Assembly (NCBI GenBank): GCA_021463515.1
Contig: JAJTYZ010000112.1
Coordinates: 1-64,000, forward strand
DNA: 64,000 nt
Direction of reading: 5' to 3'
Source: Chthoniobacterales bacterium
Lineage (GTDB): Bacteria > Verrucomicrobiota > Verrucomicrobiia > Chthoniobacterales > JACTMZ01
Numbering within the stretch: position 1 is the first letter of the stretch; each line of letters opens with the position of its first letter. The notes below the pieces were generated by a model, which saw nothing but the letters and a program-made list of their open reading frames with translations, did not search any database and was not told the origin of the DNA. This document shows positions 2,936-33,921 of the stretch, one piece after another. A program made the translations under genes and the position numbers.

Positions 2936-3865
2936 TTACCTAATCTCACCCTGCCATCCTTTTGGTTTAGCAGCGTGTCGGCCACTGATAAAAAACTTGC
3001 GAAATGTCACCCGCTTCACAGGTTGTCGTTTTTTCCAATAACTCGATGCTAATTTTAGGAAATCCCAGACACCAAACAATCCGGAGTAAAACTCCTCTCC
3101 TCCCCCTTTCCATCCCCAACACACTTGGTTAATAGCTTTCCCTGGCAAATAATATAACACCTGCGGCATGGGGACACGCAGTAATGCAAAAATCAAATCA
3201 TTCAATGTCCCGGAGCGATGCTGCTTTCCCCAATTCCGCCCACTCGTAGTTTTATCATGCCAAACATGCACTCCGGGCAAAAATCGAACAACCCATCTAT
3301 GATCCAAAAATCGCAGGCACAAATCCTTTTCTTCCGAACCATAATACCCAGGAAACTCCGCATAATTTCCCACTTCTAAAGTATAACTTCGTCTCAAAAC
3401 ATGCCCACATCCCACATAACCCAAAGCATCCTTACCCACCTCACGTGCCACCTTCTTCGGGCGATCCGGTGACAAAATATCAAATGCTACTCCCGCTACT
3501 TTGGTATCCTTCTCAAACTCACGCGCAGCCATCTCAATCTCATCTCCCCGCATAAACCAAGCATCATCGTCCAAGCTACAAAACAAATCAAACCCCTCCA
3601 TCTCCAACATCCGAGCCCGCGAATCAATCAACGACAACTCCTCTTCCGGCACAAAATGCCGAATCCCCGGAAATCGTGCGATAATCTTCCCATTCTCCCT
3701 CCGCATCTCCTCTGTCCCGGAGTTATCCCACACCATCACATCAATCAATCCATAAGACTGCTCCAAACACGATTCCAAACACTTAGGCAAATATTCCGGT
3801 CTATCCTTCGTCACAATCCCCACACGCACCCGCAACTGCCCACTAATTTCCTCTTCTTTCAGCAT
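2936..3865 (-). CDS. Glycosyltransferase family 2
   Basis: A GT-A enzyme of about 309 residues. The fold begins at VRVGIVTKDRPEYLPKCLES and the nucleotide/metal-binding acidic motif is FCSLDDDAWF. A typical C-terminal half with WHDKTTSGRNW follows. I chose ATG 3863-3865 because a G-rich stretch (GGGGGGGAGA) lies a few bases upstream. The frame stays open to a TTG at 3895. Both possible N-termini are encoded by the repeat array at 3832-3898, so about the first 15 residues are probably repeat-derived and not part of the fold. It is 33 bp (or 3 bp from the TTG) after an acetyltransferase gene. Confidence 0.87.
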   Translation of the reverse strand: MLKEEEISGQLRVRVGIVTKDRPEYLPKCLESCLEQSYGLIDVMVWDNSGTEEMRRENGKIIARFPGIRHFVPEEELSLIDSRARMLEMEGFDLFCSLDDDAWFMRGDEIEMAAREFEKDTKVAGVAFDILSPDRPKKVAREVGKDALGYVGCGHVLRRSYTLEVGNYAEFPGYYGSEEKDLCLRFLDHRWVVRFLPGVHVWHDKTTSGRNWGKQHRSGTLNDLIFALLRVPMPQVLYYLPGKAINQVCWGWKGGGEEFYSGLFGVWDFLKLASSYWKKRQPVKRVTFRKFFISGRHAAKPKGWQGEIR

Positions 3866-3898
3866 CTCAATCTCCCCCCCACTGACAACTGCCAACTT
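3832..3898 (-). repeat. Heptamer/octamer array across the acetyltransferase-GT2 junction
   Basis: Read on the minus strand this holds GTTGGCAGTTGTCAGTGGG, then GCTGAAAG-like octamer material (GAGATGCTGAAAGAAG), then GTGGGCAGTTGCGG. The 7-base unit is CAGTTGG/CAGTGGG and the 8-base unit GCTGAAAN. The array starts at the acetyltransferase stop codon and supplies the start region of the GT2 gene. Related arrays lie at 5598, 6141, 15061, 15978, 16141, 16531 and 17494. Confidence 0.75.
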
Positions 3899-4450
3899 TC
3901 ATACCTTCCCCCCAATTTCCCTCGCTGGAATCCCAGCAACTACGGTTTCGGCAGGCACATCTTTAGTCACCACGGCACCAGCTCCCACCACCGCGAATTT
4001 GCCAATACGAACATTCCGTAAAACTTTAACACCCGCGCCCAGCCAAACTCCATCTTCAATGATCGTCTCCCCGAGTCTCATCGGTTGACTTTTCACATCT
4101 TTTCCTTCCACCGGCGTATGGTCCGAGTCCGTGATAAAACACATCGGTCCGATCATCACATTCGATCCTATCCAAAGTTTGTTGGATGCATCAAGAATCG
4201 TGTGGCGGTTAATATACGTGCCACAGCCGATCCGAATTTTATCCTTTTTGGGTAGCCCGCTCGCCAAAATTGTCACCCCACGATCAAGAGCACATCCCTT
4301 GAGTGTAATATCCGCCCAATGACGAGGAATTTCAATCTGGCGCATCCAACAATACTTTTCAATATTCACCCCTAATGCTCGGTAATAGAGATTGCGCCAG
4401 CGCGAAGCACTTCCCATACAGAGACGATGGAGGAGATGGATTGGATTCAT
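3899..4450 (-). CDS. Hexapeptide-repeat O-acetyltransferase (WcaF/LacA type)
   Basis: 183 residues forming a left-handed beta-helix: repeated I/V-G-x-x motifs (IRIGCGTYINRHTIL, LWIGSNVMIGPMCFI) end in the usual GAGAVVTKDVPAETVVAGIPA closing segment. The catalytic histidine of this family is probably that in SDHTPVEG. The enzyme should acetylate a sugar or sugar nucleotide in the cytoplasm. It lies between two GT2 genes with a 4-bp gap upstream, consistent with one operon. Its stop codon adjoins the repeat array at 3832-3898. Confidence 0.86.
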   Translation of the reverse strand: MNPIHLLHRLCMGSASRWRNLYYRALGVNIEKYCWMRQIEIPRHWADITLKGCALDRGVTILASGLPKKDKIRIGCGTYINRHTILDASNKLWIGSNVMIGPMCFITDSDHTPVEGKDVKSQPMRLGETIIEDGVWLGAGVKVLRNVRIGKFAVVGAGAVVTKDVPAETVVAGIPAREIGGKV

Positions 4451-4454
4451 AACT

Positions 4455-5405
4455 TCAAAATGGCGGCAAAGACCGCCCTACCAAAATATCAAAGTATCCG
4501 AGAAGCGAACCTTTCAGAACTCGCCACTGTTTTGGATTGTGTAGGCTCCCAATCATTGTAGCGATCATTTGAAATGCGCCCCAGATCATAAGCCAAACCC
4601 AATATCTAAATCCTTGAATTCCCTGCACGCGGCGCGCCACAAAATCTCTATTAACCACGCCCATCCTCGCCACCCTTGCAAGATCAGATTTATGGCTTCC
4701 TGTTTGAGTATCATGAAAAATCCGTGCCGTTCGCGCATTGACCAATTTCCATTTTCTAGCCACCACCAATGACAAAGCCACATCTTCCATCATCGAATAT
4801 CCGGTGAACATTGGATCAAATGGAGGATCAGGCAAAGCCTCACGACGATACAGTGTAAGTCCCAAATTTAGCCACCCCACCGAAACCACGTCCGGCATTT
4901 CTTCACGATCTGCTGGAAGAAGATTCACCGCAGGCCCAAAAATCTTTCCCGCATAATCCGGTCCTAAGCCACCACCAATCAGCCGGTAAACAAGCCGCGA
5001 AACTCTGCCAGGTTCATGATATTTCTGATTCGTAATCATTGCGCTGGCACCACCGTTATCCGAAGCCAAGTGTAAAGCATTCCAAACGCGCTCCAAAGCA
5101 TGTGCCTCCAGAACAACATCATCATCCGCAAAACCAATAACATTCTCACGCACCAGACCCACTCCTTGATTTCGCTGAGCCGCAGCACCCCGCTGCTTGG
5201 CTGGAATACATAGTACCCTCGCGAACAAATCAAACCGTTCCTGCATCACACGGCATACCTCTACGGTTTGAGTGTCCGACGAAGCATCCACCACCATGAT
5301 TTCGCGTGGCCACACACCTTGAATCAATACAGATTCCAACATCTGTTGCAAAACAGCAGAACGCCCCGAAGTCGGGATCACCAGACTAAGGGGCAACACC
5401 TTCAA
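4455..5405 (-). CDS. Glycosyltransferase family 2
   Basis: 316 residues. The GT-A start is LSLVIPTSGRSAVLQQMLES, followed by VVDASSDTQT and the metal-binding motif VIGFADDDVV. A C-terminal hydrophobic segment (FRYWVWLMIWGAFQMIATMI) could anchor it to the inner membrane. Its start overlaps the end of the upstream glycosyltransferase by 4 bp (ATGA-type), so the two are translationally coupled. It probably extends the polysaccharide; the sugar specificity is not visible. Confidence 0.87.
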   Translation of the reverse strand: MKVLPLSLVIPTSGRSAVLQQMLESVLIQGVWPREIMVVDASSDTQTVEVCRVMQERFDLFARVLCIPAKQRGAAAQRNQGVGLVRENVIGFADDDVVLEAHALERVWNALHLASDNGGASAMITNQKYHEPGRVSRLVYRLIGGGLGPDYAGKIFGPAVNLLPADREEMPDVVSVGWLNLGLTLYRREALPDPPFDPMFTGYSMMEDVALSLVVARKWKLVNARTARIFHDTQTGSHKSDLARVARMGVVNRDFVARRVQGIQGFRYWVWLMIWGAFQMIATMIGSLHNPKQWRVLKGSLLGYFDILVGRSLPPF

Positions 5406-6139
5406 GTTGTGACCTCCCTAAGCACCCGCCAAAATCCCTCCCGAATCTTCACCGGGTCAAAATCGCGTCTCCCTGCCTCTACAGCCCGCTTCGCCAGCCC
5501 AACCCTCAACTCTCCATCTGTCTTCAATCTTTGTAAGCACGCCACCAATTCCTCACGCGTGGTGCACGAAACCACCCCATTGGGGTAAAAATTGAGAAAT
5601 TCTAAAACGCTAAAACGTTGCAATAATCCAACCCTTTCAGCATTTCCATTTTTCAGCTTTTCAGTTTCTTCACCTTTCAGCTTTCCCTCCCCTGTCAACT
5701 GCCCACTGCCAACTGCCAACTCCTCTACCCCACGCCCATATCTCACTCCGGTAGCAAACTCCGGCCCCGACACCACCACGGGCATCCCCAGTCCCAAATA
5801 CTCCGTTAACTTACTTGGAAAATGCGTACGGTAAAGCATCTCATTATCTCCAGCAGGATTTGAATAAGGTAAAATCATCACATCCGCCCGTTCCTGCATC
5901 GTGCGCCACATTTCTAGGATATTCATACGATGCGGCATCCATTCCACAACATCCGTCGCCTCCAATAATCCCTTTAACTTATACGGCGGTCGCGGTGTCG
6001 AAGTCAAAACCTTAGCATTCACCTCCCGCAACACCGGAATCAACGCCATCAACGCTTCCCCATATCCATAAGCCACCGATCCTGCATATCCCAGCGTCAA
6101 AGTCCCCACCCCATTTCCAGTATTCTCCTCTTGCTTCAT
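5402..6139 (-). CDS. C-terminal half of a split GT-B glycosyltransferase, with an in-frame repeat insertion
   Basis: 245 residues that read only as the donor-binding half of a GT-B enzyme: LTLGYAGSVAYGYGEAL begins a Rossmann domain and HFPSKLTEYLGLGMPVVVSG is the family's sugar-nucleotide segment. Residues 139-182 are an insertion encoded by the repeat array at 5598-5726 (ELAVGSGQLTG, then a Lys/Glu-rich stretch). The reading frame is the same as that of the upstream gene at 6215-6856, and the 75 bases between them are repeat array with three in-frame stops. The ATG at 6137-6139 would allow reinitiation. Whether two polypeptides assemble or the gene is dead cannot be told. Confidence 0.72.
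   Translation of the reverse strand: MKQEENTGNGVGTLTLGYAGSVAYGYGEALMALIPVLREVNAKVLTSTPRPPYKLKGLLEATDVVEWMPHRMNILEMWRTMQERADVMILPYSNPAGDNEMLYRTHFPSKLTEYLGLGMPVVVSGPEFATGVRYGRGVEELAVGSGQLTGEGKLKGEETEKLKNGNAERVGLLQRFSVLEFLNFYPNGVVSCTTREELVACLQRLKTDGELRVGLAKRAVEAGRRDFDPVKIREGFWRVLREVTT
5598..5726 (-). repeat. Composite octamer/heptamer array inside a glycosyltransferase frame
   Basis: On the minus strand the heptamers read GAGTTGGCAGTTGGCAGTGG and onward to CAGTTGACAG. They are followed by an 8-base series: GCTGAAAG, GTGAAGAA, ACTGAAAA, GCTGAAAA, ATGGAAAT, GCTGAAAG. The array lies wholly within the coding region 5402-6139 without introducing a stop, giving residues of about 139-182. Confidence 0.8.
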
Positions 6140-6140
6140 T

Positions 6141-6230
6141 TCAAAATTTTAGTCTTTCAGCCTCTCTCTGCCAACTGACTACTGATTCCTGCCAACTCCT
6201 CTCCTTCCAGCATTTTAGCCTTTCATCATT
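6141..6230 (-). repeat. Composite array splitting a glycosyltransferase
   Basis: On the minus strand it reads GATGAAAG, GCTAAAAT, GCTGGAAG (8-mers), then GAGTTGGCAGGAATCAGTAG and TCAGTTGGCAG (7-mers), then GCTGAAAG, ACTAAAAT, TTTGAAAT (8-mers). It joins the two halves of one glycosyltransferase in a single frame but carries stops at 6215-6217 (TAA), 6179-6181 (TAG) and 6149-6151 (TAA), all in that frame. Confidence 0.82.
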
Positions 6231-6856
6231 GCAGCCCGAAGTACTCTCGACATTTCGGGCGAGCGTGGCTGCAAATCCTCACTCCGATTCGGATACATCA
6301 CCTCACCCCTCACACTATACCGATTCGCTAGATAATCTTCCATTTCCGGGCTCACGCACAATCTCCTTGCTGCTGCTCGATATACCCTTCGGTTTTGTTC
6401 AAATAATCCCCGCTTCGCCCAAGAAAAAACTTTCTCAAATTCCTCGTTAAGATCGTGGACAATCAATACAAGCGGTACACCTAATAATCGTGCTGTCCGT
6501 TCCGCCGTCAGAATCCATGGCGTGCTCACCATCACCGCAACAACAATCCTTGGTTTAAAACTTCCCAATAAACTCAAAATCCTTCGATGTGTTGGCAAAG
6601 GAATCAACCCTGTTGCCGCCCATGATCGCTTATACATGCTAAATCGGGTATTATCAAAGCGCGCCATCGGCATTTTTAACTCACAGTAAGAACACGGTAG
6701 CACCTTTGCCCCATGATCTGTAGGCGGTCCCATAACGCACAGCGAATCTATGGGATACTCCGAAAAAAGGTGATACAACAATATCGCGCCTGCGTTTCGC
6801 GTTTGAGGAACTTCACCAGAAAGAATGAGCACATACGGCTTAATCATTGTCGGCAT
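6215..6856 (-). CDS. N-terminal half of a split GT-B glycosyltransferase
   Basis: 213 residues forming the acceptor domain of a GT4-like enzyme: YVLILSGEVPQTRNAGAIL, then TARLLGVPLVLIVHDLNEEF, then RLCVSPEMEDYLANRYSVRG. The last is the segment that normally precedes the interdomain linker. The frame stops in the repeat array (last residues AAMMKG), and the missing donor domain is the next gene downstream in the same frame. The likely start is MIKPYVLILSG, three codons inside the longest frame. It follows a 492-residue membrane protein by 51 bp. It is either the first of two co-translated halves or a pseudogene fragment. Confidence 0.7.
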   Translation of the reverse strand: MPTMIKPYVLILSGEVPQTRNAGAILLYHLFSEYPIDSLCVMGPPTDHGAKVLPCSYCELKMPMARFDNTRFSMYKRSWAATGLIPLPTHRRILSLLGSFKPRIVVAVMVSTPWILTAERTARLLGVPLVLIVHDLNEEFEKVFSWAKRGLFEQNRRVYRAAARRLCVSPEMEDYLANRYSVRGEVMYPNRSEDLQPRSPEMSRVLRAAMMKG

Positions 6857-13920: not shown

Positions 13921-15054
13921 TCATCCACCGCCGGCCAACTCTAAAAATCTCCGCGCCATGGCGGCAGGTGAATAATTCGCAATCACCCAATCATGTCCCT
14001 CAACAGCCACCTTACCCAAAATTTCAGGCTCATCTTTAATACGTTCAAGAGTTTTCTTCGGTTGCGCCAAATCAACTCCAATATAGTGTTTCCAATTCTC
14101 CGGCATTACCGGAAGATCAACTCCATACATCTCTAAATCCAGATTGATCACCACACACCCGGCCACCCAAGCCTCCCACGCTCGAAAACTATCCCACTGA
14201 ATAGACCGCCGAGGTCGCAGATCAAACTTAGCTATAAAATCAAAAAAATGCCGTTTCAATTTTGCCTTATTCCCTCCCACCATATAGCTTTGCGGATTCC
14301 ACGGCATCGGCGGAATAAGTTCACCACAAAAGCAAGCAACGGCTTGGCTACTCTTTAGGCGATTGTAATAGTTTTGCGAAAACCTCATCCCCGTCTGTTC
14401 CCACATAAGCCGCTCATAAGGATTAGAAGGTTCTTTCTTGAGATCATCTTTCGTCGTATCGAATGGGATTATCTTTTCTAATTGCGGCAAAAATTTCTTC
14501 TCGGCTTCAATTCGCGCTCCATGCCCATAGGGATGCGAGGCTCCAAAGTTCACCGACACAACACGCCGCCGCTCGGCAAACGACAACGCTCCTGACGTAG
14601 CTTGCACAATACGGTTGGTGAACCCTAAAACCCACGGACGCATGTTTTCCGGATGCCACGCACGGCGGTTCAACTTAGAACGCAAAATCAGATCAAACTT
14701 CCGGTATTCAGGTTCCCAAGATTCTGTCCAATACCCATCATGGTTGTCCATACACACCGTCACATACCTCCTTCCTTTCTTAAATAAGCCTTCCGGCAAA
14801 GGGCGCTTTAGAACCTCAAAACTCCCTGGACGCATAAAAACCGACCACGTGTAACTAACCACCACAACATCGCAATCATCCGGGCTTACATCGGGGTCAT
14901 GTTTTATTAAGAAATCGTCAGACACTGCAGACTGACGCCAATAATTACAGCTTCCATAAAATGGCACGCCGAGTTTTTTTAATCCTTCCGCCAGAGTAAC
15001 TACATCCTCCTGCAGATTGAAAGGCTCATCACGACAATAGAAGTAAACCCGCAT
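13921..15054 (-). CDS. Putative glycosyltransferase (exostosin-like, GT-B)
   Basis: 377 residues if started at the ATG 15052-15054 (MRVYFYCRDEPFN). The longer frame to 15108 adds an N-terminus (TVGSWPSAGEDKK) encoded by repeat array and overlapping the upstream gene, so I do not use it. Near residue 300 it has WDSFRAWEAWVAGCVVINLD, similar to the donor motif of exostosin-type or CgeB-like glycosyltransferases, and a late segment VIANYSPAAMARRFL usual at the end of GT-B enzymes. No metal DxD is evident, as expected for GT-B. The assignment rests on the C-terminal half and the context. Confidence 0.62.
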   Translation of the reverse strand: MRVYFYCRDEPFNLQEDVVTLAEGLKKLGVPFYGSCNYWRQSAVSDDFLIKHDPDVSPDDCDVVVVSYTWSVFMRPGSFEVLKRPLPEGLFKKGRRYVTVCMDNHDGYWTESWEPEYRKFDLILRSKLNRRAWHPENMRPWVLGFTNRIVQATSGALSFAERRRVVSVNFGASHPYGHGARIEAEKKFLPQLEKIIPFDTTKDDLKKEPSNPYERLMWEQTGMRFSQNYYNRLKSSQAVACFCGELIPPMPWNPQSYMVGGNKAKLKRHFFDFIAKFDLRPRRSIQWDSFRAWEAWVAGCVVINLDLEMYGVDLPVMPENWKHYIGVDLAQPKKTLERIKDEPEILGKVAVEGHDWVIANYSPAAMARRFLELAGGG

Positions 15055-15060
15055 TTCGTT

Positions 15061-15112
15061 TTTAGCTTTCTTGTCCTCTCCTGCCGACGGCCAACTACCT
15101 ACTGTCAACTTC
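15061..15112 (-). repeat. Heptamer/octamer array at a gene junction
   Basis: On the minus strand it reads AAGTTGACAGTAGGTAGTTGG, then CCGTCGGCAGG, then GACAAGAAAGCTAAAA just before the downstream ATG. The variant unit CAGTAGGTAG supplies the TAG stop of the upstream GT2 gene, whose last residues VDSR are repeat-encoded. Confidence 0.75.
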
Positions 15113-16153
15113 CCTGCTCAGTTTTTCGGCCTTTTCTCCCAGTGCTGCAGCATAAGCTCCTAAGTCATGCTGACCGGCTCTAATCTCCCTTACAGCTTTC
15201 CACATGCCGCGCCTTCGTGACATTGTCATCTCCCATTCCAAACGCCTCAGTCGCCCCCTTCGCATAAAGGACATAATCCAGAATCGCCAATCGTTGCGCG
15301 GATGCAAGATGCGCCCATTCTCAACAAATCCATGCAATACAGTTGAATAGGCATTGGCCTCCGCATTTTTCAGCAAATATTCATCAGAGCAACGACCCAC
15401 AGGGATCAAATGATCCATCAACAACTTCTTAAATACACCCTTTCCATACCCTGATTGACACCCCACATAAGATAAGTCGGAATCTCCTCCGAAGCCAGCA
15501 CTTTTTGGAGTCGGATCTAGCAGCCGACGCATCGGATTATCCAAAACACGTTGTCGGTAAAGTTTTAAGGTCTCCCTCCGTGCACATAGTCCTGCTCCCC
15601 ATGGGGTGGAATCATGATGCTCAATCACATTGGACCAAATATCCTGTGTTAATTCACGCGCACACAAAGCACCCCGCAGCCAGGTATCAGGTGCCTTATC
15701 CGGCTCATCAAACTTTAGTAAAATTTGCCCACCCCAAGTTCCTAGGTGAGGGAAATCCCTAGAAATTTTGACAACCTCCTCAAGATAATCCGCCCGCAAA
15801 GCATTATCCTGATCCACAAAAACAAAGACATCTCCCTTCCCCAACTCAAACCCATACAGTCTGGAACTCACCAACCCAATCCCCTCCCGCTTCCGGTCCG
15901 TCTGCACAAGCCGCGCATTGGGATGCCATCCCAAATCCACAACCACCCTCCCTTCCTCCTCCCTCACCAACTCATCCCCTGCCCACTGCCCACTGCCAAC
16001 TGTCAACTTCTTCCTCGACGCATCATCAATAACGATCAGCTCCCATTGATCCTTAGGCAGCGTCTGACTCATAAGTGCCTCCAGCACAATCCCCAAATGC
16101 CGCACTCCAGGATTGCAGCAGGGCATGATAACGGAAATGAAGTTGGCAGACAT
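15095..16153 (-). CDS. Glycosyltransferase family 2 with an in-frame repeat insertion
   Basis: 352 residues. The GT-A domain reads FISVIMPCCNPGVRHLGIVL, then ELIVIDDASRKK, then residues 49-59 (KLTVGSGQWAG), which are encoded by the repeat array at 15978-16009, then HPNARLVQTDRKREGIG and the metal motif VFVDQDNALR. The insert and the acidic stretch after it lie in a loop position where related enzymes are shorter. The start ATG and residues 2-4 are encoded by the array at 16141-16170, and the last four codons plus stop by the array at 15061-15112. No Shine-Dalgarno sequence is visible before the ATG; only 17 bases of repeat separate it from the preceding stop. Confidence 0.84.
   Translation of the reverse strand: MSANFISVIMPCCNPGVRHLGIVLEALMSQTLPKDQWELIVIDDASRKKLTVGSGQWAGDELVREEEGRVVVDLGWHPNARLVQTDRKREGIGLVSSRLYGFELGKGDVFVFVDQDNALRADYLEEVVKISRDFPHLGTWGGQILLKFDEPDKAPDTWLRGALCARELTQDIWSNVIEHHDSTPWGAGLCARRETLKLYRQRVLDNPMRRLLDPTPKSAGFGGDSDLSYVGCQSGYGKGVFKKLLMDHLIPVGRCSDEYLLKNAEANAYSTVLHGFVENGRILHPRNDWRFWIMSFMRRGRLRRLEWEMTMSRRRGMWKAVREIRAGQHDLGAYAAALGEKAEKLSREVDSR
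15978..16009 (-). repeat. Heptamer array inside a GT2 coding region
   Basis: On the minus strand the units read GTTGACAG, TTGGCAG, TGGGCAG, TGGGCAG: four near-perfect 7-mers of the CAGTTGG family. It stays in frame within the GT2 gene and yields residues of about 49-59. The Gly/Ser/Val-rich translation is nearly the same as that of the array at 5693-5724. Confidence 0.82.
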
Positions 16154-16170
16154 CAGTAGTCAGTTGGCAG
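16141..16170 (+). repeat. Inverted heptamer array downstream of the four-helix-bundle gene
   Basis: On the plus strand it reads AGTTGGCAGACATCAGTAGT then CAGTTGGCAG. All other arrays of this family in the window show CAGTTGG on the minus strand; this one is inverted. It directly abuts the TAA of the four-helix-bundle gene and contains the start codon of the downstream GT2. Confidence 0.82.
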
Positions 16171-16515
16171 TTATTGCTTCAGTGAGCGTATCAAACCTTG
16201 GATCATGGCCGAAAGCTCACGACTATCGCTGATCCAGCGATCAGCAATAGAGTTTTCTAGCAAACCGGCTTTTACACCCACAGTTGCTTGTGTCCGAAAT
16301 TCCCCACATGAACCTCGAGCGTAATCAAGAAACTTCAAGCGATCGGGCAGCGATCTCCGCTCCATACCTTCAGCAATATTCGAGGGAATAGAAAGTGCCG
16401 AACGTGTTATCTGATCACGAAACCCGAAATCTACACACTTCGCAAGCTTTCTGTAAACGTTAGCACTCAGCTCTACGGAACGCTTCCAATCCTCCAAATC
16501 TTCAAAACCCGCCAT
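16171..16515 (-). CDS. Four-helix-bundle protein (S23/IVP family, TIGR02436-like)
   Basis: 114 residues from ATG 16513-16515 (MAGFEDLEDWKRSVELSANV). The family hallmarks are the W in EDWKRS, FRDQITRSALSIPSNIAEGM and FLDYARGSCGEF. Proteins of this family are known from intervening sequences of 23S rRNA and as relatives of the Avd subunit of diversity-generating retroelements. They form helical-bundle oligomers that bind nucleic acid. Here it sits alone between an rmlD-like gene and a GT2 gene, with no reverse transcriptase nearby. Heptamer arrays in opposite orientation flank it on both sides, as they do the pseudogene at 31230-31596. Its cellular role here is unknown. Confidence 0.9.
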   Translation of the reverse strand: MAGFEDLEDWKRSVELSANVYRKLAKCVDFGFRDQITRSALSIPSNIAEGMERRSLPDRLKFLDYARGSCGEFRTQATVGVKAGLLENSIADRWISDSRELSAMIQGLIRSLKQ

Positions 16516-16530
16516 ATACAAATTTCCCCT

Positions 16531-16569
16531 AGTGACTGTCTGCTGCCCGCTGATTACTGCCTACTGCCC
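16531..16569 (-). repeat. Heptamer array upstream of the four-helix-bundle gene
   Basis: On the minus strand the 7-mers run AGTAGGC, AGTAATC, AGCGGGC, AGCAGAC, AGTCACT. The upstream rmlD-like gene ends inside it: its last codons GSRQ and the TAA at 16554-16556 are repeat sequence. Orientation is opposite to the array on the other side of the four-helix-bundle gene. Just upstream lies the inverted sequence GCCCAAAATTT/AAATTTTGGGC inside the rmlD-like gene. Confidence 0.8.
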
Positions 16570-17471: not shown

Positions 17472-17493
17472 ATCTTTTATAAATTAAATTCTT

Positions 17494-17579
17494 CCCATTT
17501 TCAACATTTAAGATTTTCAGTATTTTAGCTTTTTCTCCACTCCCTCCTACCAACTGCCTACTGACTCCTGCCAACTATC
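17494..17579 (-). repeat. Composite octamer/heptamer array between rmlC and the rmlD-like gene
   Basis: On the minus strand the heptamer part reads ATAGTTGGCAGGAGTCAGTA then GGCAGTTGGTAGG. It is followed by octamers GCTAAAAT, ACTGAAAA, TCTTAAAT, GTTGAAAA. The stop codon (TAG, 17558-17560) and the last residues (GIVGRSQ) of rmlC are encoded by it. It lies 23 bp before the downstream gene. Confidence 0.82.
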
Positions 17580-18112
17580 CCTTCCCCCAAACTCCCTCCC
17601 CTCCCATCCTTTTCCGAAACAACCGGCTCTCCTTTAAGTGGCCACTGAATGCCTAATGATTTATCGTTCCAGAGAATGCAACATTCGTAAGATGGCGAAT
17701 AAAACTCCGTAGTTTTATAGGCAACATCGGCAAACTCAGAGAGCACATAAAATCCATGCGCAAAACCTTCCGGAATCCACAACATCTCTTGCGCCTCATC
17801 AGTTAATACCTCACCCACCCACTTTCCATAGGTCGCAGATTCAGGACGAATATCCACAGCGACATCGAAAATCTTCCCCCGCATCACCGTGATCAGTTTT
17901 GCCTGAGCCTTGGGTTCCACTTGATAATGCAATCCCCGCAAAACATTCCTTTTCGAACGCGAATGATTATCCTGCACAAACTCTACCTGACGATTCAATA
18001 CTTCATTTAACTTCAAGCGATTCCAAGATTCCAAAAAGAACCCTCGCTCATCACGAAAAATTTTCGGCTTAAGCAACATCACACCATCTAGCTTCGTTTG
18101 AATTACTTCCAT
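17558..18112 (-). CDS. rmlC: dTDP-4-dehydrorhamnose 3,5-epimerase
   Basis: 184 residues of the RmlC cupin family: RDERGFFLESW, the catalytic-histidine motif NVLRGLHYQ, WIPEGFAHGFYVLSEFADV and YKTTEFYSPSYE with the conserved Tyr. It epimerises a 4-keto-6-deoxy sugar nucleotide, feeding the RmlD-like reductase that follows. About 15 C-terminal residues (GGSLGEGIVGRSQ) are non-conserved, and the last seven with the stop come from the repeat array. The start ATG at 18110-18112 fits the family length. Confidence 0.9.
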   Translation of the reverse strand: MEVIQTKLDGVMLLKPKIFRDERGFFLESWNRLKLNEVLNRQVEFVQDNHSRSKRNVLRGLHYQVEPKAQAKLITVMRGKIFDVAVDIRPESATYGKWVGEVLTDEAQEMLWIPEGFAHGFYVLSEFADVAYKTTEFYSPSYECCILWNDKSLGIQWPLKGEPVVSEKDGRGGSLGEGIVGRSQ

Positions 18113-31180: not shown

Positions 31181-31183
31181 GGG

Positions 31184-31225
31184 GTTCTTGGTTCTTGGTT
31201 CTTGGTGCTTGGTGCTTGGTTTTTG
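31184..31225 (+). repeat. Heptamer array (GTTCTTG) upstream of hddA
   Basis: On the plus strand six 7-mers run GTTCTTG, GTTCTTG, GTTCTTG, GTGCTTG, GTGCTTG, GTTTTTG. It lies between the stop of the four-helix-bundle pseudogene and the hddA start. The array on the far side of the pseudogene (31598-31662) is in the opposite orientation. Confidence 0.9.
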
Positions 31226-31229
31226 AAAA

Positions 31230-31596
31230 TTAATCGGCGTTGAGGAGGTATTTGATAAATCCTCCGATTTTTGCGTAAGTCAACCGGGCAAGCTCGTAGA
31301 GTTCTTCAAATTTGGATGGCGAGATATATTCCTGATCCAATGCGACATAAAGCTGACTCTGTACTTCGCTGCAGGAACGCTGGGCATAGCGGAGGAACTT
31401 GATAAACTCCGCCCTACTGCCACTATCAAACCCTTCGGCAATATTGTGCATAATGGAGCCGGCCGCCCTCGTGATCTAATCCCGCAAACCAAAGTCACGA
31501 CTAAATTTCTCCGAGGCAACAGCCGCATAAATTGAGCGCGTCAAGTTCCCTCGCCAATTTCCAAGCCTCAATCTCCTCGAACCGCGTAATTTTCAT
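31230..31596 (-). pseudogene. Decayed four-helix-bundle (S23/IVP family) gene
   Basis: From ATG 31594-31596 the frame starts MKITRFEEIEAWKLAREL. An extra base near 31542 shifts it; the next frame continues TRSIYAAVASEKFSRDFGLR. A TAG at 31476-31478 then replaces the expected Gln of the RDQIT motif, followed by ITRAAGSIMHNIAEGFDSGS and FIKFLRYAQRSCSEVQSQLY. So there is one frameshift and one nonsense change in an otherwise well-preserved family member. An internal ATG (31449-31451) would give only the last 73 residues. Heptamer arrays in inverted orientation flank it, as for the intact gene at 16171. Confidence 0.88.
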
Positions 31597-31597
31597 A

Positions 31598-31662
31598 CCC
31601 ACCAAAAACCAAAAACCAAGAACCAGGAACCAAGCACTAAGAACCAGAACCAAGAACCAAAT
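31598..31662 (-). repeat. Heptamer array (TTCTTGG) covering the hddC-gmhB stop codon
   Basis: On the minus strand it reads GTTCTTGGTTCTGGTTCTTA then GTGCTTGGTTCCTGGTTCTT then GGTTTTTGGTTTTTGG, with period 7. The TAG at 31637-31639 that ends the upstream fused gene lies in a TTCTTAG variant unit. The ATG of the four-helix-bundle pseudogene follows within a few bases. Confidence 0.9.
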
Positions 31663-32953
31663 CCACCGCTGCCCCGATATCCGCCACAACGTAATCCGGC
31701 TTGGCCTCGGGAAACTTTCCATCGCGCCCGCCCGCGCCCGTCCTAACGAGGATGGAACGCAATCCCCCACGCCGTGCCATTTCCATATCCACTGTGGTAT
31801 CTCCGACCATCCAAGAACGTGTGGGATCCAGCGCGAGGTCGCGGCAGGCTTGTTGAAGCATTCCCGTCGCGGGCTTACGACATTGGCAGGGACCTTTGAG
31901 TTCGGGACGCTCTCCGGGGAAACCATTGTCTGGGTGGTGCGGACAATAATAAATCGCATCCAGAAATGCTCCTTGCAGGCCCATCTCCCATTCCATCTTG
32001 CGGTGGATGGCAGCCACATCCTGCTCGGACGCTTCTCCACGGGCGATGACGGGCTGATTCGTGAGAACCACAAGCCGATAACCCGCTCCACGCAATTTTT
32101 TCAAGGCAGCCGCCACCCCCGGCAATAAGTCGAATTGCGCGGGCGTGCTGATAAAGCCGTTTTCTGCATTAAGCGTTCCATCACGATCCAGGAAAACCGC
32201 GGATTCACGATAGGCGTCATCGCGTAAATGAATACGGCCTTCCTGCCAATCGCGATGAACCTTCTCCAATCGCTCAGGAGTGCCCATGTCCTTAATGTAC
32301 TCGGTTGAGTTATAGGCTTCGATATGCCCACCGGCGGCAAGCAAGGCGGGCAAAACATCCTTGGCGAAGTCACGCTTGACGACCTCCCTGCTCCACGGAA
32401 GCAGAACGTCACGACGTATGACATAAAGTGCCGCATTGACGAGGTTGGCGAAGTATGGCCCTTGAGGATGAGGATAAGGATGCAGTGCGGTAACGCGCCC
32501 ATCCGTATCCGCCTCGACCAAATCGGAATCCTGCGGATGATCATTAGGATGAACAAAAGTGGTAAGATCGGCTCCTTGTGCGAGGTGCCTTCGTACAAAG
32601 CGCCCAAGGTCCACGGCCAACATGGTGTCGCCATAAAGAACGAGAAAATGCTCGGGCAGGGAATTCAACCGCTGAAGAACCGCTCCGGCACTTCCCAGCG
32701 GCTGCTCTTCGACGTCTACCGTCACCCGCAAATTAAAACGCGAGCCATCGCCTGTGAACTTGCGAATTTGATTAGCTAGGTGCCCTGCAAAAATCCGTAC
32801 ATCGTTAATGCCGTAGGCGGCAAGGAGATCGAGTTGATGTTCTAAAACCGGCTTCCCTCCGATCGAAACCAAAGCCTTCGGAATATCTCCCACAACCGCT
32901 GTGAGCCGCGTTCCCTTCCCTCCCGCTAAAATGGCCGCTGTATCAACCTTCAT
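31637..32953 (-). CDS. Fused heptose-1-phosphate guanylyltransferase (HddC-like) and heptose-1,7-bisphosphate phosphatase (GmhB-like)
   Basis: 438 residues from ATG 32951-32953 (MKVDTAAILAGGKGTRLTAV). Residues of about 1-230 are a nucleotidyltransferase domain (GGKGTR; IPKALVSIGGKPVLEHQ; LYGDTM). Residues of about 250-435 are a HAD phosphatase: AVFLDRDGTLNAENGF, VVLTNQPVIARG, the GmhB zinc-binding cysteines and histidines in YYCPHHPDNGFPGE and GPCQCRKP, and WMVGDTTVDMEMA. Together with hddA and gmhA this completes the GDP-D-glycero-D-manno-heptose route, with two of its enzymes in one chain. The last residues (LVLGSGS) and stop lie in repeat sequence. Confidence 0.88.
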   Translation of the reverse strand: MKVDTAAILAGGKGTRLTAVVGDIPKALVSIGGKPVLEHQLDLLAAYGINDVRIFAGHLANQIRKFTGDGSRFNLRVTVDVEEQPLGSAGAVLQRLNSLPEHFLVLYGDTMLAVDLGRFVRRHLAQGADLTTFVHPNDHPQDSDLVEADTDGRVTALHPYPHPQGPYFANLVNAALYVIRRDVLLPWSREVVKRDFAKDVLPALLAAGGHIEAYNSTEYIKDMGTPERLEKVHRDWQEGRIHLRDDAYRESAVFLDRDGTLNAENGFISTPAQFDLLPGVAAALKKLRGAGYRLVVLTNQPVIARGEASEQDVAAIHRKMEWEMGLQGAFLDAIYYCPHHPDNGFPGERPELKGPCQCRKPATGMLQQACRDLALDPTRSWMVGDTTVDMEMARRGGLRSILVRTGAGGRDGKFPEAKPDYVVADIGAAVDLVLGSGS

Positions 32954-32955
32954 GC

Positions 32956-33921
32956 TCACAATCCTTGCTCGCACGCCATTTCATCTATAGCGCGAATCGC
33001 CGCCTCATCGGATGTTATGCGAGGAGTCCATCCAAGCCGCTTCAGCTTTTTCGTGCTATAAGAAAACCTCGGAACATCCCCCACCCACCCACGGTCCCCT
33101 CCGGTGTAAGCAATAGACGTCCCCGGTGCTACGCGGGCGATACTTTGTTCCGCAAGAAAACGCACGAACGTCCCCTCACCGCGTGGACCGATGTTGAAGA
33201 CATTCCGCCTGTCGGTCGTGTGGGCCACGATGAACTGCATGGCATCCATCAACTCGCTCACATGCAGATAAGGTTTGCACTGGGTTCCATCCCCCAGCAC
33301 ACGCAATGTCCCCGGGTACGCCGTAAGGCGTTTCACGAAGTCATAAATTGCCCCATGTGTGGCGCGAGGCCCAATCACGTTGGGAAAGCGAAATATCCAC
33401 ACGTTTTCAAGGAAACTCTCTACCGCAGCACTCAGCAATGCCTCACTCGCCAGCTTAGTTGCGCCATAATTAGAAATGGGGAGCAAAGGCCCGCTCTCCT
33501 CTTCAAGAATATCCTCCCGCTCGCCATACACCGCTGATGTGGAAGCGAACGCTATCCGCCGCACGCCCACTTCCCGTGCTGCCTCCAATGTCCCATAGGT
33601 CGTTCCTAGCGTCCTCTTAAAGTCCACTGTCAAATCCGCAACACCCGCCAAAATATCGCTGTTCGCCGCCAGATGCCACACGAAATCAACCACTCCATGC
33701 GCTTGGACAGCTCGAGCAAAAGAATCCTTCGCAGCATCTGGATTACTCACATCAGCCTCCACGAAGTGAAATCGTGACTCCTTCCTCGCGGACGCCAAAT
33801 GCCCCTCCGTTCCAAGCGAAAAATCATCCACCCCGCTCACGAAATGCCCCTCCGCAAGCAGGCGATCCGCAAGCTGGCTGCCGATAAACCCGGCCACACC
33901 AGTAATAAAATGATGAGCCAT
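32956..33921 (-). CDS. NAD-dependent sugar-nucleotide epimerase/dehydratase
   Basis: 321 residues from ATG 33919-33921 (MAHHFITGVAGFIGSQLADR). It has the NAD-binding G-x-x-G-x-x-G, the strand RIAFASTSAVYGERED and an intact catalytic Y-x-x-x-K in SNYGATKLASEAL. It sits between gmhA and the hddC-gmhB fusion, 2 bp from the latter, so it may act on GDP-heptose or its products, for example to make a modified heptose. That substrate is inference. The longer frame to 33978 would overlap gmhA and is rejected. Confidence 0.85.
   Translation of the reverse strand: MAHHFITGVAGFIGSQLADRLLAEGHFVSGVDDFSLGTEGHLASARKESRFHFVEADVSNPDAAKDSFARAVQAHGVVDFVWHLAANSDILAGVADLTVDFKRTLGTTYGTLEAAREVGVRRIAFASTSAVYGEREDILEEESGPLLPISNYGATKLASEALLSAAVESFLENVWIFRFPNVIGPRATHGAIYDFVKRLTAYPGTLRVLGDGTQCKPYLHVSELMDAMQFIVAHTTDRRNVFNIGPRGEGTFVRFLAEQSIARVAPGTSIAYTGGDRGWVGDVPRFSYSTKKLKRLGWTPRITSDEAAIRAIDEMACEQGL

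Follow-up and report, generated by a model that had tools for sequence, protein, structure and literature searches.

In repetitive extragenic palindromic (REP) sequences and REPINs with their REP-associated tyrosine transposases (RAYTs), and in miniature inverted-repeat transposable elements (MITEs), short palindromic, non-autonomous copies go together with a gene-carrying relative, and the short tandemly repeated repetitive (STRR) sequences of cyanobacteria are heptameric tandem repeats. Heptad repeats have been reported from Beggiatoaceae (TAACTGA; PMC4679880) and from Xanthomonas and Nostoc (GGGAATC; PMC4692102), and for two Xanthomonas genomes the counts of inverted, convergent pairs are 70 and 75 (PMC4692102). 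Terminal inverted repeats flank the S23p open reading frame (ORF) of the intervening sequence (IVS) in the Coxiella 23S rRNA, which is regarded as selfish and for which former mobility has been hypothesised (PMC4990558), and the S23 family, PF05635, resembles Avd, the accessory protein of diversity-generating retroelements (PMC10053308). Here we describe a 64,000-nt stretch (the window; positions 1 to 64,000 of contig JAJTYZ010000112.1) of a metagenome-assembled genome (MAG) of a Chthoniobacterales bacterium, in which a glycosyltransferase (GT) gene of the GT-B fold, in a surface-polysaccharide cluster, is interrupted by a heptad repeat. The gene was probably a single-chain GT-B gene split by insertion of a repeat from the family that forms the arms of a nearby PF05635 element.

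Results

The two ORFs run in a single frame on the minus strand, from 6856 to 6215 and from 6139 to 5402, and the 75 nt (25 codons) between them, 6214-6140, hold an in-frame TAG at 6181-6179 and a TAA at 6151-6149. A preliminary description of this DNA had given the shared frame, the 25-codon spacing, stops at 6215, 6179 and 6149 and an ATG at 6139, all of which agree with our coordinates. The first ORF matches PF13439 (E 7e-11; 42.8 bits, cut-off 28.5) and PF13579 (E 9e-11), both above cut-off. Against PF13692 the donor half scores weakly, at 17.7 bits where the cut-off is 27, and so does the uninterrupted enzyme of the congener VE1 (19.9 bits). A GT4-type GT-B enzyme is expected to be one polypeptide, which the window gene, with three in-frame stops, does not encode. 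A shared frame alone would be a one-in-three coincidence; the two ORFs are assigned to one ancestral gene because an intact single-chain ortholog exists.

This ortholog, in VE1 (contig JACSRX010000055.1), is a single 424-aa chain that is 66% identical to the window enzyme and lacks two repeat inserts present in the window, insert 1 at the split and insert 2 in the donor half: the ortholog alignment places a net 41 extra codons between ...LRAA and LTLGYAG and a net 42 after GVRY. The 25-codon separator described earlier was correct as a spacing; measured against the ortholog, the insert itself is longer, as it also covers the final 4 codons of the first ORF and some 11 codons of the second, and a second insert accompanies it. 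When 236 genomes of the class were searched with the VE1 protein (E ≤ 1e-30), five matched, namely the window's own genome (G000), in two pieces, and four others with single-chain frames free of internal stops: VE1 (G009) and, at 31-32% identity, G032, G169 and G287. Homologues are thus not always encoded as two genes, the outcome that the preliminary description had named as fatal to its proposal. Since VE1 and the three more distant relatives are single-chain, the split is derived. The local gene order rmlD-S23-GT2-GT is common to VE1 and the window, and the VE1 gene adjoins the same FkbM-type gene that sits some genes upstream in the window. Identities to VE1 are 65% and 66% for the halves and 67%, 75% and 57% for neighbouring intact genes. 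Beyond the inserts the halves carry no further lesion; synonymous sites relative to VE1 are saturated, so that divergence does not distinguish recent gene death from function.

A structural model of the read-through chain (5 sequences; mean predicted local distance difference test score, pLDDT, 66; predicted template-modelling score 0.65) showed the two Rossmann domains of a GT-B fold. The top Foldseek matches in the PDB were GT4 enzymes, GlgM, BshA and MshA among them (E 3e-13), a family label that we presume for all but 2jjm, whose title names GT4. A phmmer search of the PDB with the VE1 enzyme gave no match at E ≤ 0.01, and the fold was placed by the structure search instead. Residues 210-249 and 370-424 of the model, with pLDDT below 50, are inserts 1 and 2, and because these residues coincide with the inserts in the GT-B fold, the model puts the split in the linker that joins one Rossmann domain to the other, and insert 2 in a loop. 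Alignment with single-chain homologues, suggested earlier as a check, likewise places the join in the inter-domain linker. The single-chain relatives and the position of the join in the linker uphold the original view of the ORFs as acceptor and donor halves of one GT-B protein split by a repeat insertion.

The array, beyond what the preliminary description noted, is one of several dispersed copies of a composite repeat, in which a block of GTTGGCA heptads is followed in 4 of 5 copies by a GCTGAAA block. Five segments, from five sites within 14 kb, align with one another; the GCTGAAA-like block is found in both GT-B inserts, in the rmlC-rmlD gap and at the start of the GT2 gene that begins at 3895, and is not clear in the copy within the GT2 gene 15095-16153. 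The other best matches of a 35-mer from insert 1 (6202-6168) in 631 kb of G000 and genome G010 lie at 16136 (30/35, inverted), 5692 (28/35), 17547 (28/35) and 15979 (24/35), against a chance level of 22-23 as the best for 15 shuffled queries over 2 x 631 kb. At the strictest setting, lag-7 arrays were detected at four places in the window and at none in five shuffles. Such heptad arrays, which are of STRR type, dominate the tandem repeats of the 631 kb (11, versus 0 in one shuffle). No match to a two-heptad pattern, with one mismatch allowed, was found in VE1. The case for the composite repeat leans on the segment alignment and the 35-mer search, not on a loose scan for the order of the blocks. 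The TAG of insert 1 lies within CAGTAG, which recurs in the copies at 16136 and 17547; because it is common to these two other copies, the inserted sequence probably brought its own stop, and it was probably the insertion event that broke the chain.

We considered and rejected the idea that insert 1 forms a long hairpin with the role of an RNA intron, as its fold reached z -1.97; the hairpin of insert 2 folds with z -2.67. The listed ORF 13921-15108 opens with codons (MTVGSWPSAGEDKKAKNE; 15063-15115) that resemble heptad repeat, and its VE1 ortholog begins MRVYFY. Another heptad array (CTTTCGA; G000:C16:97325-97366) has no PF05635 gene nearby, and arrays without such a gene occur elsewhere too; in 400 kb of G010, for instance, five GTTGAGG arrays lie at the ends of genes.

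The window also contains two PF05635 elements, A and B, which lie between protein genes and not in 23S rRNA; no Rfam family matched the window at gathering scores. In both, the PF05635 gene stands alone between the arms, and no search for a transposase source acting in trans was made. The downstream arm of element A is the inverted 30/35 match (16136-16170) of the insert 1 35-mer. Element A folds weakly (z -1.68), and element B, with an inverted-arm score of 34, folds as one long stem (z -6.28). The start and first codons of the GT2 gene 15095-16153 (MSAN..., 16139-16153; MPFISV... in VE1) lie inside the downstream arm of element A, and the upstream arm of element B (31596-31665) forms the C-terminus (...VDLVLGSGS) of ORF 31637-32974. 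The rmlD-GT2 site of VE1 is likewise occupied by a PF05635 gene (L036 / L009:444-900), which has an in-frame stop, a sequence that visibly diverges from that of the window gene, and different arm heptads.

We then compared the flanks of PF05635 genes more widely. In the order, 59 loci were fetched, one of which (L014) was dropped as the second piece of another (L013); 56 of the remaining 58 had enough flank. A locus was scored as having inverted arms when the complementarity between 140 nt upstream and 140 nt downstream exceeded the 99th percentile of its own shuffles. Inverted arms were detected at 41 of these 56 loci, and same-strand similarity at 6. With a pooled threshold, 36/56 were inverted, whereas more distant flanks, at some 560-700 nt, gave 1/47 and pairs taken across loci 5.4%. 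Another 30 loci, from the rest of the phylum, gave 22 inverted, 4 direct and 2 far matches (cross-locus, 6.4%), and plasmid loci gave 10 inverted, 2 direct and no far matches out of 15 (15 of 21 matching plasmid records; 14 cyanobacterial and 1 from Azospirillum). Only 4 of 150 ordinary G010 ORFs, drawn from 331, passed the inverted-arm test. At lags 7, 14 and 21 the identity within the flanks is 0.30-0.40; for other lags, or at a greater distance from the gene, it is mostly 0.24-0.31. The heptad varies from one element to another (GTTGAGA, GTGACGA, GTCGAGG, GGGAGTA and others) and agrees within one element. The upstream arm is G-rich at 47/57 loci of the order and 26/30 of the phylum (19/53 for far flanks of the order set), and the downstream arm C-rich at 49/57 and 26/30 (23/51 for far flanks). 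One Pseudanabaena locus (L113) is an exception, with direct, not inverted, AAAGCTA/AAAGCCA arrays on both sides. Three of the 15 plasmid S23 loci (L111, L113 and L114) lie inside cyanobacterial CRISPR-cas operons, twice as cas6-S23-cas4 and once as cas10-S23-cmr3.

Filled and empty sites were found at two gene pairs. Between metK and ahcY, 11 congeners show a PF05635 element (6), a remnant (1) or an empty gap of 40-62 nt (4). Between sdhA and sdhB, 28 of 30 loci were readable, with an element in 4, a truncated element with arms in 1 and none in 23; on the SdhB tree, with only well-supported branches enforced, the four filled congeners require at least three changes, a patchy distribution. At metK-ahcY, two heptad types occupy one site, both arms having changed together, and the PF05635 proteins are 53-55% identical; sdhA-sdhB gives no co-variation signal, since there the arms can largely be exchanged between congeners. 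Terminal inverted repeats and empty sites, by which transposons and MITEs are recognised, are thus both present, and a PF05635 gene with matched heptad ends is a widespread and apparently mobile mini-element.

Table 1 Features of the split GT-B gene, the composite repeat and the PF05635 elements in the window
Feature	Position	Strand	Description
Acceptor (N-terminal) half, GT4-type GT-B	6215..6856	-	213 aa; TAA 6217-6215; 65% aa identity to VE1 residues 11-218
Donor (C-terminal) half	5402..6139	-	245 aa; own ATG 6139; 66% identity to VE1
Insert 1	~6107..6229	-	~123 nt heptad/octad repeat, net 41 codons; stops TAA 6217-6215, TAG 6181-6179, TAA 6151-6149; absent in VE1
Insert 2	~5585..5749	-	GTTGGCA heptads, GCTGAAA octads and inverted TTTTAGCG octads; open, in frame, net 42 codons, in donor half
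Mini-ORF, 18 codons	6157..6213	-	ATG 6213 (1 nt past first stop), TGA 6159-6157; ends 17 nt before ATG 6139
Composite repeat between rmlC-like and rmlD-like genes	17482..17585	-	Repeat alignment
Composite repeat at start of GT2 gene 2936-3895	3838..3905	-	Repeat alignment
Heptad array in GT2 gene 15095-16153	15965..16022	-	In-frame insert of ~17 codons, absent in VE1
Element A gene, intact PF05635/TIGR02436 four-helix bundle (S23, IVP)	16171..16515	-	114 aa; PF05635 E 1.9e-27, TIGR02436 E 3e-28, PDB 2GSC E 1.6e-14
Element A upstream arm	16534..16569	-	GGGCAGTAGGCAGT..., GGCAGT-type heptads
Element A downstream arm	16139..16170	-	Inverted heptads; holds start codon of GT2 gene 15095-16153
Element B	31181..31665	-	Decayed PF05635 gene 31230-31596 between inverted GGTTCTT/AAGAACC arrays

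Discussion

In the history that we consider probable, the composite repeat, with GTTGGCA heptads and then the GCTGAAA block, inserted into an ancestral single-chain GT-B gene. The insertion activity would have been supplied by an S23 element, or by its protein together with a host enzyme, and S23-less arrays such as insert 1 would be non-autonomous or one-armed products of S23 elements. After the split, the acceptor domain would be made alone, and any donor half would depend on re-initiation at ATG 6139, for which the mini-ORF might act as a relay.

Several observations weigh against this history. The arms of element A are poorly matched (inverted score 13, pooled 99% threshold 16), so that it is the 30/35 copy of a single arm that ties the GT insert to a complete element. 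The array of insert 1 runs in one orientation and is not a palindrome, and the loose scan for heptads followed by GCTGAAA is weak on its own (26 matches in the window versus 1-9 in shuffles). The inverted-arm test was failed by 15/56 loci of the order, 8/30 of the phylum and 5/15 of the plasmids, and the locus counts are not independent, because the best-scoring matches were fetched and include many orthologues. Comparison by eye of the filled and empty pairs of metK-ahcY and sdhA-sdhB, whose gaps are too short or too divergent to align, showed no target-site duplication, and we know of no recombinase for PF05635. Finally, the source MAG is 66% complete, and the analysis was made from the assembly alone.

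What the split means for the enzyme is a closer matter. Judged from the sequence, we lean somewhat towards a loss or reduction of activity and away from an enzyme that works as two subunits. A recent pseudogene, in which the insertion ended donor-domain synthesis and no other decay has followed so far, has a little over an even chance. It would account for the in-frame stops and is consistent with the TAG in sequence common to two other copies, by which the insertion itself was probably disruptive, and, as far as a 66%-complete MAG can show, with the lack of an intact paralogue (E ≤ 1e-30); the intactness of both ORFs otherwise, and the open, in-frame state of insert 2, argue against it.

Bipartite GT-B enzymes exist, Alg13/Alg14 being an example, and the two halves might similarly reassemble as subunits after re-initiation at 6139, which we regard as doubtful. 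Each half is a whole domain joined at the linker, and ATG 6139 lies 13 codons ahead of the first donor strand. The mini-ORF, which starts 1 nt past the first stop, could serve as a re-initiation relay to this ATG. The donor half has no lesion besides the open insert 2, and its divergence equals that of the intact neighbours. Against two subunits stand the three in-frame stops and the lack of a good Shine-Dalgarno sequence at 6139, as judged by eye; saturated synonymous sites are also compatible with recent death, and none of the 236 genomes searched provided a second split.

Other explanations concern the repeat itself. The S23 arms might be an RNA stem, for RNase III processing or autoregulation as in the 23S rRNA IVS, that is kept by compensatory change, the GT array being unrelated heptads. 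The arms do co-vary within elements, element B folds strongly, and the Coxiella IVS has a 28-bp terminal stem that is cut by RNase III (PMC4990558). However, S23-less arms occur at gene ends, site occupancy is patchy, element A folds weakly and the GT insert matches an S23 arm at 30/35 positions, which makes the RNA stem unlikely. Local tandem slippage, by which heptad copy number would toggle a fused enzyme, is suggested by a unit that is not a multiple of three in a surface-glycan glycosyltransferase gene; it is very improbable, since a simple copy change cannot restore the chain when the ORFs share a frame and three different stops intervene. Phase variation as the principal explanation was rejected on account of the degeneracy of the array (at most two perfect tandem copies) and the heptad order shared with distant copies. 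An assembly error at repeats of a short-read MAG, conceivable with several similar arrays within 14 kb in an incomplete genome, can be dismissed almost entirely, because the halves keep frame and identity, the array copies differ at many positions and VE1 shares the local gene order.

Insertion of a repeat related to S23 arms thus remains our preferred account. A wider possibility, which we put forward tentatively, is that a PF05635 gene and the matched inverted heptad arms around it make up a mobile element of a widespread class that has not been described so far. The dispersed heptad repeats of cyanobacteria, Xanthomonas and others would then be S23-less products of this class, and one such event would have cut the GT gene in two and perhaps turned its product into a two-subunit enzyme. 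Since the heptad is element-specific, the same in both arms and mostly G-rich on each strand from host to element, the arms may arise where the element inserts, by templated addition of a 7-nt unit to each of the two 3' ends. These ideas connect what stand-alone PF05635 four-helix-bundle proteins do, where the heptad repeats of bacteria come from, and how polysaccharide genes acquire in-frame repeat peptides or become split. If the arm rule is true, XCC0516 of Xanthomonas campestris (the solved 2GSC protein) should lie between GGGAATC arrays of the kind that its genome is reported to carry, and the mobile-element hypothesis is testable in cyanobacteria.

Our literature search, whose scope excluded most subscription papers and all bioRxiv preprints, found no paper tying PF05635 or four-helix-bundle genes to heptad or inverted repeats, and the main text of PMC4679880, like that of PMC4692102, contains neither 'S23' nor 'helix bundle'. 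IVS S23 elements and heptad repeats are already known; the S23 elements described here are IVS-like, but sit outside rRNA and have arms made of heptads. The read-through model shares its fold with the GT4 GT-B enzymes BshA, MshA, PimB' and GlgM, and the window chain differs from them in being cut in the linker. A Nostoc S23 protein also matches bAvd, below the cut-off. As in REP/REPIN-RAYT systems and MITEs, non-autonomous copies accompany a gene-carrying relative; unlike in those systems, no transposase is recognised between the arms of the two window elements, PF05635 is a small four-helix bundle, and the arm sequence is not fixed. The STRR, Beggiatoaceae and Xanthomonas-Nostoc repeats are likewise dispersed, degenerate heptad arrays, mostly intergenic with some in ORFs, whereas here S23 genes sit between paired arrays. 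With the 23S rRNA IVS of Coxiella and Leptospira the present elements have in common a PF05635 ORF and terminal inverted repeats; unlike the IVS, they lie between or inside protein genes, their arms consist of tandem heptads whose unit is peculiar to each element, and similar arrays without the ORF occur as well.

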